DNA from: Oscillatoriaceae cyanobacterium M7585_C2015_266
GTDB taxonomy: Bacteria; Cyanobacteriota; Cyanobacteriia; Cyanobacteriales; Oscillatoriaceae
Assembly (NCBI GenBank): GCA_015295835.1
Contig: DVEG01000032.1
Span: forward strand, 1-64,000
Length of the DNA stretch: 64,000 nt
Direction: 5' to 3'
The position numbers were made by a program, and so were the translations under genes. Shown in pieces: positions 14,632-20,374 of the stretch (positions are counted from its first letter, which is position 1; each line of letters starts with the position of its first letter). A model generated the notes under the pieces. It saw nothing but the letters and a program-made list of their open reading frames with translations, had not been told where the DNA came from and searched no databases.

Positions 14632-14913
14632 ATGACAGGTAAAAGCAAGCGAGGATTTGCCTCTATGGATCGAGCAAAGCAGCGGGAAATTGCCAGCAAA
14701 GGCGGAAAAGCTGCCCATCAAAAGGGGACGGCACACGAGTTTACCCCAGAGGAAGCTAGGGAAGCAGGTCGTAAAGGAGGCGAGGCGGTAAGCAAAAACC
14801 GCGAACACATGGCTGAAATAGGCAGGAAGGGCGGCGAAGCCGTGAGCGAAAACCGTCAACACATGGCTGAAATAGGCAAAAAAGGTGGCAAGCAAAGTCA
14901 CAAAAACAGTTAA
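14632..14913 (+). CDS. KGG-repeat (GsiB/Con-10-like) stress protein
   Basis: 93 residues, very hydrophilic and rich in Gly, Lys, Glu and Ala. It contains four to five KGG units: RGFASMDRAKQREIASKGGKA, EAREAGRKGGEAV, MAEIGRKGGEAV and MAEIGKKGGKQS, with the 21-22-residue spacing of Pfam KGG repeats. Such proteins (Bacillus GsiB, fungal Con-10) are induced by general stress or desiccation and are probably disordered hydrophilins. The last two units are nearly identical at DNA level, a sign of recent duplication. An inverted repeat lies in the leader and a possible small-RNA unit follows. A protective role is inferred from the family. Confidence 0.92.
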   Translation: MTGKSKRGFASMDRAKQREIASKGGKAAHQKGTAHEFTPEEAREAGRKGGEAVSKNREHMAEIGRKGGEAVSENRQHMAEIGKKGGKQSHKNS

Positions 14914-16616: not shown

Positions 16617-17459
16617 TTGGACGAGCTGAGAGCTGCACTGGAAATGGCCACAGAAGAAGAATTGCAGGAATTGACCTACCTGCTATTCTGTCGCAAATTT
16701 AATCCCCTAGACTATCTCAACACCCCCACGCCGATAGACATTCAAAGCCGCGAGCGAGAAGCGTGGCTAGATGCTTTAGAGCAACGATTTCGCTATTTAG
16801 CAGCCGATGGCATAACCGTATTGCGGGGCCGTACCGATACAGTAACCTATCGACAAGCAATTATAAAAGTTTTTCGTTACCTGAAAATTCCCTACTCGAA
16901 TAAACTCTCCACCACCGACTTAGAGGCAGAACTATTTCTCAACTTACTAGGGCGAGCATGGAAGAAAATGCCAGCTTCCGAACAGCAAGCCTTGACAGTG
17001 CAACTGCAAAAAAGTCTAGCAAAAGCTAAATTTTCCACACCGCTACCCCTCTCTTTTGAGAAAGATCCATTCGGCTTACTGTTTAAAGGCGGCAGCGCCC
17101 TAGCAGTTTCTGCTGTGATAAAGCCAATATTGCTGCAGCAACTCGCCCGTCAGTTTGCTATTCAATTTGCCAAATATCAAGTCGCTAAAGCTACCCTAAT
17201 GCAGGGGGGGCTGAGCGCAGCAGCAAAATTCGAGAGCTATGTGGCACTGCAAACGGCGCGACGGGGAATGGCGTTGAGTGCCGCCCGCTATGGAGCAGTG
17301 CGCAGCGTCTTCGCTTTCCTCGGACCAATGCTTTGGGCCTGGTTTTTAGCCGATCTAGGTTGGCGAGCGATCGCCACCAACTACGCCCGCATTATCCCCA
17401 CCATTTTTACCCTGGCACAAATTCGTCTTACTCGCGCCGAGTGCTGGGAACCTGCCTGA
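16617..17459 (+). CDS. YaaW-like conserved protein
   Basis: 280 residues starting at TTG (16617). The start is decided by a strong GGAGG at about 16603-16607, nine bases upstream. The N-terminus (DELRAALEMATEEELQELTYLLF) and ELFLNLLGRAWKKMPASEQQAL resemble the YaaW/DUF3944 group of E. coli and cyanobacteria. The C-terminal half is hydrophobic and Ala/Gly-rich (GGSALAVSAVIKPILLQQLARQ; SVFAFLGPMLWAWFLADLGW), suggesting one or two membrane-associated helices. Function unknown across the family. The next gene, an O-antigen-ligase-like protein, begins 30 bp downstream, so they are likely co-transcribed. Confidence 0.7.
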   Translation: MDELRAALEMATEEELQELTYLLFCRKFNPLDYLNTPTPIDIQSREREAWLDALEQRFRYLAADGITVLRGRTDTVTYRQAIIKVFRYLKIPYSNKLSTTDLEAELFLNLLGRAWKKMPASEQQALTVQLQKSLAKAKFSTPLPLSFEKDPFGLLFKGGSALAVSAVIKPILLQQLARQFAIQFAKYQVAKATLMQGGLSAAAKFESYVALQTARRGMALSAARYGAVRSVFAFLGPMLWAWFLADLGWRAIATNYARIIPTIFTLAQIRLTRAECWEPA

Positions 17460-19000: not shown

Positions 19001-20374
19001 ATGGCAGAAAAATTAAGCGCTAGTGAAATTCAAAAATTATATACTGCTGGGAGAAAAAACTTTCGCAACATAGATTTGAGCGCCGCCGACTTAAAGCGCG
19101 CCAACCTTCCAGATATCAACTTTCAACAAGCAAACCTCCAATGGATTACCTTACAGGCAGCCAACCTCCAAAGAGCCGACTTCTCCGGCGCAGACTTACA
19201 GAAAGCCAAAATGCAAGACGCCAACCTACAAAAAGCCAAATTACAAAAAGCCAACCTGCGCGGTGCTAACTTACAATGGGCAAACTTACAAGAAGCAGAT
19301 TTACAAGAAACAGAGCTACCCAAAATTGACTTATTTAACGCCAATCTAGCCGGGGCAAATCTGCGCTGGGCAAACTTACAAGCCGCCAACCTACAAAAAG
19401 CCAACCTTAGCGGCGCAGATATGCGAATTGCCACCCTGCGAGAGGCTAACCTGACTGACGCCGATTTACAAAAAACCAAACTCCAAAAAGCCAACTTACA
19501 AAGTGCCAACCTCAGCGGCGCTAATCTCAGCGGCGCTAACCTGCAAGGAGCAAATCTCCAGCAAGCCCAGCTCATCAAAGCCAATCTCAGCAACGCCAAT
19601 CTCAGCGGCGCTAACCTGCAAGGAGCAAACCTGCAAGCAGCTTTACTACCATCATTAGAAAATATGCAAGGAGCTAATTTGCAGGGGGCTTACCTTCAGG
19701 GGGCTATATTATCTGCAGGGGAAGACTTACTTGCCGCTATTCAGCCTGATGGTTTGGTTGCAGCTAAGCAAACTTCTTCCCTAATTCAGCCTACAAAAAG
19801 TAATGTAATACCAGAGAAAAATTATTCTATCAAACAATCCCTCCAAACTAGCCCGGTTGAGGAAAAAATTTTAGAGGAAAATCAAGATATTGAAAAGAAA
19901 CGCGAGCAGGTTTCTGCTCTTGAAAAGCTAGCCGCAGCACAAGAGCGTATCGATACTTGTTTTGAAGAGAAGGAAACTCTGGAAACTGCCGCAGAGCGCA
20001 TTTACGAAGCGCTCGCATTACGGCGCGGAAAATCAGCATTTCGTCAGAAATTACTCGCAGCCTACAACTATCGCTGCGCCATCACTGGTTGCAATGCCGA
20101 GCCTGTTTTAGAAGTAGCTTACATACTTTTTGATACCGGGGTAACCGAGGAAATATCTAATGCCCTACTGCTGCGAGCAGATATTCATAATCTATTTGAT
20201 TTAGATATGATTGCCATAGAGCCGAATGGGATGATAGTGCGGGTTGCTCCTGCACTCATCGGCACTAACTACAGTGAATTGAATGGGCGCTCGCTGCAAC
20301 TACCAATGATTGAAGAATTTCATCCGAATAAAGCCGCACTACAGTTGCGCCTTCGTCGCTGCAAGTGGTTATAA
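19001..20374 (+). CDS. Pentapeptide-repeat protein fused to HNH domain (first His altered)
   Basis: 457 residues in three parts. Residues about 25-235 are a long run of pentapeptide repeats A(D/N)LxX, which form a right-handed quadrilateral beta helix. Residues about 285-335 are a charged, coiled-coil-like linker. Residues about 338-457 are an HNH_2-type nuclease domain: RGKSAFRQKLLAAYNYRC, AITGCNAEPVLEVAY, NALLLRADIHNLFDLDMIAIEP, and a C-terminal NYSELNGRSLQLP. In the family the segment is normally LEAAHI; here it is LEVAYI, so the first catalytic His is Tyr374, while His396 of ADIHNLFDL remains. The nuclease may be inactive or altered. The repeats could act as a DNA mimic or scaffold. No partner gene is adjacent. 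Confidence 0.88.
   Translation: MAEKLSASEIQKLYTAGRKNFRNIDLSAADLKRANLPDINFQQANLQWITLQAANLQRADFSGADLQKAKMQDANLQKAKLQKANLRGANLQWANLQEADLQETELPKIDLFNANLAGANLRWANLQAANLQKANLSGADMRIATLREANLTDADLQKTKLQKANLQSANLSGANLSGANLQGANLQQAQLIKANLSNANLSGANLQGANLQAALLPSLENMQGANLQGAYLQGAILSAGEDLLAAIQPDGLVAAKQTSSLIQPTKSNVIPEKNYSIKQSLQTSPVEEKILEENQDIEKKREQVSALEKLAAAQERIDTCFEEKETLETAAERIYEALALRRGKSAFRQKLLAAYNYRCAITGCNAEPVLEVAYILFDTGVTEEISNALLLRADIHNLFDLDMIAIEPNGMIVRVAPALIGTNYSELNGRSLQLPMIEEFHPNKAALQLRLRRCKWL

Follow-up and report, generated by a model that had tools for sequence, protein, structure and literature searches.

Proteins with pentapeptide repeats or HNH_2 domains are already known, as are pseudoenzymes, and the known pentapeptide DNA mimics present an acidic, DNA-like surface. 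For the HNH nuclease VcaM4I, the published study describes H224 as the residue that activates water, N241 as structural, D250 as a metal ligand and D254 as a proposed second ligand (PMC7897488). For PacI, a review places a Tyr as the general base and names an Asp and an Asn as the metal ligands (PMC4081073). The literature that we searched, which was limited in scope, held no description of a pentapeptide-HNH fusion or of a conserved pentapeptide-pseudo-HNH family.

The window analysed here is a stretch of 64,000 nucleotides (contig DVEG01000032.1) from the 3.98 Mb genome of Oscillatoriaceae cyanobacterium M7585_C2015_266. A sequence-only reading had proposed that one of its genes (Table 1) joins a pentapeptide helix to an HNH_2 domain whose first catalytic His is Tyr, with the other half of the motif kept, and this proposal was confirmed. 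The Pfam families Pentapeptide (PF00805; E 7.6e-60, on tandem A(D/N)LXX repeats) and HNH_2 (PF13391; residues 359-407, E 4.9e-7, 29.9 bits vs a curated cut-off of 21) were matched above their curated cut-offs. Residue 374 is Tyr, encoded by TAC in the context LEVAYILFD, while Glu371, Asn387, Asp394, His396 and Asp400 are all present. Among NCBIfam models, the Alr5209-family model passed its cut-off on the repeats (159.7 vs 125 bits) and the HetL model remained under its own (150.6, cut-off 260); none covered the pentapeptide-HNH fusion. A phosphorothioate-dependent restriction endonuclease model matched the C-terminal part under its cut-off, and PADLOC returned matches to generic HNH and restriction-enzyme models only. 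No SRA or EVE modified-base sensor was found N-terminally by Pfam, where only pentapeptide and decapeptide families matched. An HNH search of the window genome pointed to one place only.

Table 1. Features of the pentapeptide-HNH gene, in window coordinates.
Feature	Coordinates	Strand	Basis
Whole gene: 457-aa pentapeptide-repeat protein with C-terminal HNH_2 domain	19001..20374	+	ORF, Pfam
Pentapeptide-repeat quadrilateral beta-helix, aa ~16-255	19046..19765	+	PF00805, AF2 model
Variable linker, low-confidence prediction, aa ~256-329	19766..19987	+	Low pLDDT, high dN, varying length
HNH_2 domain, base-substituted, aa 330-457	19988..20371	+	Pfam, AF2 (pLDDT 90.5, pTM 0.81), TagI/VcaM4I fold matches
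Tyr374 (TAC), place of the general-base His, end of beta-strand 370-374	20120..20122	+	Codon, model; role from VcaM4I H224
Asn387, moniker Asn (structural in VcaM4I, N241)	20159..20161	+	Alignment with VcaM4I
His396, metal-ligand position (VcaM4I D250)	20186..20188	+	Alignment with VcaM4I
Asp400, proposed second metal-ligand position (VcaM4I D254)	20198..20200	+	Alignment with VcaM4I
C-terminal Cys-x-Trp, C454-W456	20360..20368	+	Residue counts among relatives

In the full-length AF2 model, the repeats wind into a regular beta-helix reaching approximately residue 255, with a bridge residue about every five and pLDDT block means of 87-98 over residues 11-250, mostly 94-98; residues 257-457 fell under pLDDT 50 in this run, which used a 13-row alignment. 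A run on the HNH domain by itself, with 80 sequences of which most are intact relatives (model numbering offset by 320), yielded the confident model scored in Table 1, a beta-beta-alpha fold with strands 370-374 and 388-392 followed by a helix at 393-400. Its nearest solved folds were TagI (Z 13.9; 104 aligned, 2.4 Å) and VcaM4I (Z 11.4), with a Cas9 ranked third (Z 6.9). VcaM4I was also the nearest solved chain by sequence (profile E 2.7e-5), and the phmmer alignment pairs its H224, N241, D250 and D254 with Y374, N387, H396 and D400, respectively.

When 388 genomes of the order were searched with an HMM built from degenerate domains, 106 of them matched at 1e-6, and 74 loci, all of at least 86 bits, were taken for tabulation, leaving out G270:C53 (two in-frame stops) and weaker places. 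Within these 74 loci, the degenerate pentapeptide-HNH fusion occurs in at least 17 of the 388 genomes, window included, an intact-HNH pentapeptide fusion in at least 7 (eight proteins) and a related degenerate fusion, L060, in one further genome, the pentapeptides being assigned by Pfam in the window protein, L055, L060, L077 and L122 and in the remaining loci by counting repeats and by visual inspection. The earlier description of the fusion as an unusual architecture must be qualified by this number of carriers. Named relatives include Oscillatoria sp. PCC 10802 (G004) and O. princeps RMCB-10 (G001). In all 11 orthologues aligned full-length, the repeat region is co-linear with the window protein and the linker varies in length; of 15 chosen genomes, 10 gave a match to the repeat part at E 1e-40, and each match lay inside the fused frame.

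Tabulation of residue 374 in the 16 orthologues of the order gave seven Tyr, three Pro, three Phe, two Leu, one Cys and no His, which rules out a lone mutation or sequencing error in the window copy. The seven Tyr orthologues all belong to one genus (g56), and five of them lie on named Laspinema or Oscillatoria contigs. Position 387 drifts as well; with the window counted, the 17 family members carry Ser (7), Asn (4), Asp (2), Tyr (2), His (1) or Arg (1), so that the Asn is lost in 13 of 17. Conversely, E371, D394, H396, D400 and W456 are unchanged in 17/17, the last within a C-x-W end whose first residue is Cys in 14 and Ser in 3.

A different picture came from 107 relatives outside the window family and a membrane-type sister family, a count that leaves out 19 named loci repeating order genomes as well as later finds from the class search. 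Position 374 is His in 96 of them, Tyr in 10 and Met in 1, and Asn387, H396 and D400 are present in 107, 106 and 106; the helix His is subject to bias in the 79 named loci, which come from the best 80 of 532, since the search patterns partly require it. The C-terminal Trp is found in 44 of the 107 and in all 11 membrane-type proteins. Relatives on viral contigs, searched with patterns that also partly require the helix His, have H, N, H and D in 42/42 and at most 12 A-x-L repeats before the domain in any, and 300 plasmid records match the domain at less than 60% identity. The eight intact pentapeptide fusions (L067, L076, L115, L122-L126) all have complete H-N-H sites. Wider searches matched 14 of 386 genomes across the phylum (at 1e-30) and 29 of 388 across the class (at 1e-34); among the loci inspected there, the only departures from His374 are Tyr in L233 and L254, Phe in L257 and L259 and Thr in L239, where L239 is the L062 protein again and L257 has Gln at 387. 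HNH_2 was below cut-off or absent in L081, L062, L060 and L264, and L265 was unmatched; these were assigned by the family HMM.

The membrane-type family comprises 11 proteins with a degenerate HNH domain preceded by segments that look transmembrane-like by eye. Here H396 is replaced by Gln (8), Lys (1) or Arg (1) and kept once, D400 is replaced by Ala (6), Thr (2), Glu (1) or Asn (1) and kept once, and none of the 11 keeps both. The retention of both residues in the window family is thus not merely a matter of folding. The orthologue occurs in 10 of the 11 genomes with a membrane-type protein, a co-occurrence equally explained by ancestry, as all 11 lie within one bacterial family (f9). The N-terminal part of the membrane-type L062 matched 28/40 relatives, and in the window genome only an 818-aa frame matched it. 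Two adjoining genes, which look by eye like a UbiA prenyltransferase and Ppx/GppA, are common to 4/4 membrane-type loci (L062, L078, L081, L105). A third degenerate architecture is found in L060 (G029), L259 (G671) and L257 (G848), with pentapeptide repeats, a long linker and an HNH-like domain that has Met or Phe at the base position and substitutions at one or both metal-ligand positions, followed by a segment that looks transmembrane-like by eye and a C-terminal part. Cu_amine_oxidN1 was matched, below its cut-off, only in L265, the G848 protein.

With moderate confidence, we regard the window family as a conserved cyanobacterial scaffold, in which a restriction-type HNH_2 nuclease domain is carried on a pentapeptide rod and the need to cleave has been lost. 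For the family, this loss is the simplest account, since the base position takes five residues and the Asn drifts while the fold and the metal-ligand positions stay. An HNH_2 restriction-type domain would have been fused to the pentapeptide-repeat rod and would then have lost the need to cleave. Given that the fold, H396, D400, R392 and D394 are kept, the domain has most likely retained the ability to bind a partner, either a DNA phosphate at the metal site or a protein on the HNH surface. The partner would sit at the end of the flexible linker, and the rigid rod would touch something else. We infer for the window family that cleavage has been lost, that metal is bound, that the ligand is DNA or a protein and that the protein acts as a scaffold, whereas the fusion, the orthology, the base replacement, the drift of Asn387, the metal-ligand retention, the purifying selection and the predicted fold were computed.

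Against a non-cleaving window copy stands the fact that it departs from the active site by H374Y alone, and Tyr-based activity is a real rival for a site that lacks only the His. According to this possible, though clearly less favoured, explanation, the protein is an active nuclease with Tyr374 as its general base, as thought for PacI, and the orthologues with Pro, Leu, Phe or Cys would have lost activity later. Tyr is an exchange with catalytic precedent at the HNH base site, on the evidence of the review on PacI cited above (PMC4081073). Moreover, Tyr374 in an otherwise intact site recurs outside the window: the fusions L233 (G591) and L254 (G673), two further long branches from other families of the class, have LEVAYIL, the Asn, His and Asp and the C-x-W end, and ten Pseudomonadota HNH_2-type proteins of 335-465 aa (L176, L177, L181, L186, L190, L200, L201, L202, L204 and L206) combine Tyr with an unchanged set of Glu, Asn, Asp, His and Asp. 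These ten form one clade (SH-aLRT 99); nine are titled Gammaproteobacteria or an order thereof and one only Pseudomonadota, and the N-terminal part of L202 had no Pfam match. Tyr-bearing L202, L262 and L263 score well as HNH_2 (49.5, 43.8 and 42.5 bits), but the window domain reaches just 29.9 bits vs 51.5 for the intact fusion L122. The Tyr-base explanation is also weakened by the tolerance of Pro, Leu, Phe and Cys at 374 in orthologues and by the seven Laspinema-group copies, which keep Tyr yet carry Ser387.

A broader version of this idea, which we hold tentatively and with slightly less conviction, is that the His-to-Tyr exchange is recurrent in HNH_2, that Tyr is the base in Y-N-H nucleases and the state from which pseudo-nucleases with Pro, Leu, Phe, Cys or Met decay, and that the window protein is a tyrosine-based nuclease on a rod. 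The Y-N-H group would then be pentapeptide-fused in cyanobacteria and joined to another N-terminal part in Pseudomonadota; such a group was not found in the literature searched. The suggestion that the window protein is catalytically dead was not established, considering its Asn387, its two metal-ligand positions, the PacI precedent and the recurrence of Y-N-H-D. Its alternative, a re-purposed nuclease, fared better, for the base is replaced across the orthologous family and the Asn drifts, with the rest of the domain under purifying selection. The nuclease has probably been turned into a binding part in the window family, and the Tyr of the window copy could still cut.

Selection bears on a further explanation, that the HNH domain is a decaying, functionless remnant on a useful repeat protein. 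Two active-site positions drift, and the linker (the 100 aa before the domain) evolves fast, with the highest dN of three segments in 9/9 family pairs. However, pairwise dN/dS of the degenerate domain was 0.10-0.29 in six of the nine pairs, from the Laspinema and Planktothricoides groups; the other three, Oscillatoria pairs of low divergence, gave 0.26-0.55. These estimates are rough, as two intact-domain pairs of low divergence came out at 0.95 and 0.42. In the same six pairs, the first 250 aa gave 0.035-0.143, and the value for two membrane-type pairs was 0.16-0.17. Since the domain also reaches the C-terminal Trp and keeps its metal-ligand positions in 17/17, a remnant seems improbable. Across seven lineages, columns 374 and 387 showed the highest and second-highest excess variability among the 124 compared, measured against a reference set chosen for having His and Asn, so that the residue counts in the 107 relatives are the fairer comparison; the metal-ligand columns had no excess.

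Least probable of all, and rather remote, is a Qnr/MfpA-like DNA mimic that carries the HNH part as an accessory binding module, the sense in which the protein had been called a DNA-shaped scaffold: the NCBIfam Qnr (84 vs 240 bits) and MfpA (63.3 vs 360 bits) models match the repeats, all below cut-offs, as pentapeptide proteins in general may, but the first 250 aa come out close to neutral, at +2 in the window protein (K+R 23, D+E 21; a simple count) and 0 to +5 in six orthologues. The net charge of the HNH domain does not clearly differ between degenerate proteins and intact relatives, and so gives no test of DNA binding.

As to descent, a first domain tree (134 rows) placed 16 family members and the 11 membrane-type rows on a shared branch (SH-aLRT 91, not starred). 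In a second tree (79 rows, later finds included), the family did not form one branch freely, and constraining it was not worse (p-AU 0.513). In that tree L233 and L254 group with L060, L257 and L259 (96/94), and a constraint that joins the family to L233 and L254 gave p-AU 0.264. With all degenerate cyanobacterial rows held together p-AU was 0.123; a single degenerate clade is neither rejected nor demonstrated by these tests, the domain being too short for the tree to decide.

In the window, and near the Oscillatoria loci L054, L055 and L056, the gene is flanked by DnaJ, DUF3143, uppS, cdaA and lysA, of which cdaA and lysA were named by eye; the neighbours from DUF3143 to lysA were compared by tblastn. 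Wzy_C is common to the window, L054 and L055 only, L056 being a short contig. The window neighbours were not found near 13 other orthologues at 1e-10 within about 6 kb. This neighbourhood is common to the window and three Oscillatoria loci only, and no functional link to an operon partner was inferred. A 280-aa protein at 16617-17459 has no Pfam match at 0.1 but is conserved: a counterpart close to the orthologue in Oscillatoria PCC 10802 is 79.8% identical over 104 aa, the alignment being truncated where that stretch ends. A 93-aa protein with repeated Lys-Gly-Gly-type motifs lies at 14632-14913. A STAS-domain gene stands near a distant pentapeptide-HNH fusion in 3/5 loci (L263:8937-9278, L264:9339-9716, L266:4258-4659); none was found among the window neighbours searched with Pfam.

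The family matters because it has lost the base and let the Asn drift but retained the metal-ligand positions, and it stands beside intact pentapeptide-HNH relatives, so that the sequence in which a nuclease sheds its parts can be read. If the Tyr is catalytic, PacI would be no lone case, and calls of a dead HNH based on a missing His would need correcting.

Compared with the known systems, the window domain shares the beta-beta-alpha fold of the TagI and VcaM4I HNH domains, and the VcaM4I Asn and metal-ligand positions align with its own. In contrast, those enzymes have a general-base His where the window protein has Tyr and its orthologues other residues, and their N-terminal partner is SRA or EVE instead of a pentapeptide helix. 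Set against catalytic HNH endonucleases generally, the window protein has the moniker Asn and the metal-ligand positions, but not the general-base His374. PacI is not known to carry pentapeptide repeats. The likeness to that enzyme, drawn from the review (PMC4081073), lies in a Tyr where the general-base His stands, while its metal ligands are Asp and Asn vs the His396 and Asp400 positions here. Cyanobacterial pentapeptide proteins (the Alr5209 family, HetL) have the same repeat fold, to which the window protein adds a linker and an HNH domain. Closest in layout are the intact pentapeptide-HNH fusions, which come from the same bacterial order and have the same two domains in the same order; they differ in their complete active sites and, in those inspected, in repeats that look different by eye, and L115 is without C-x-W.
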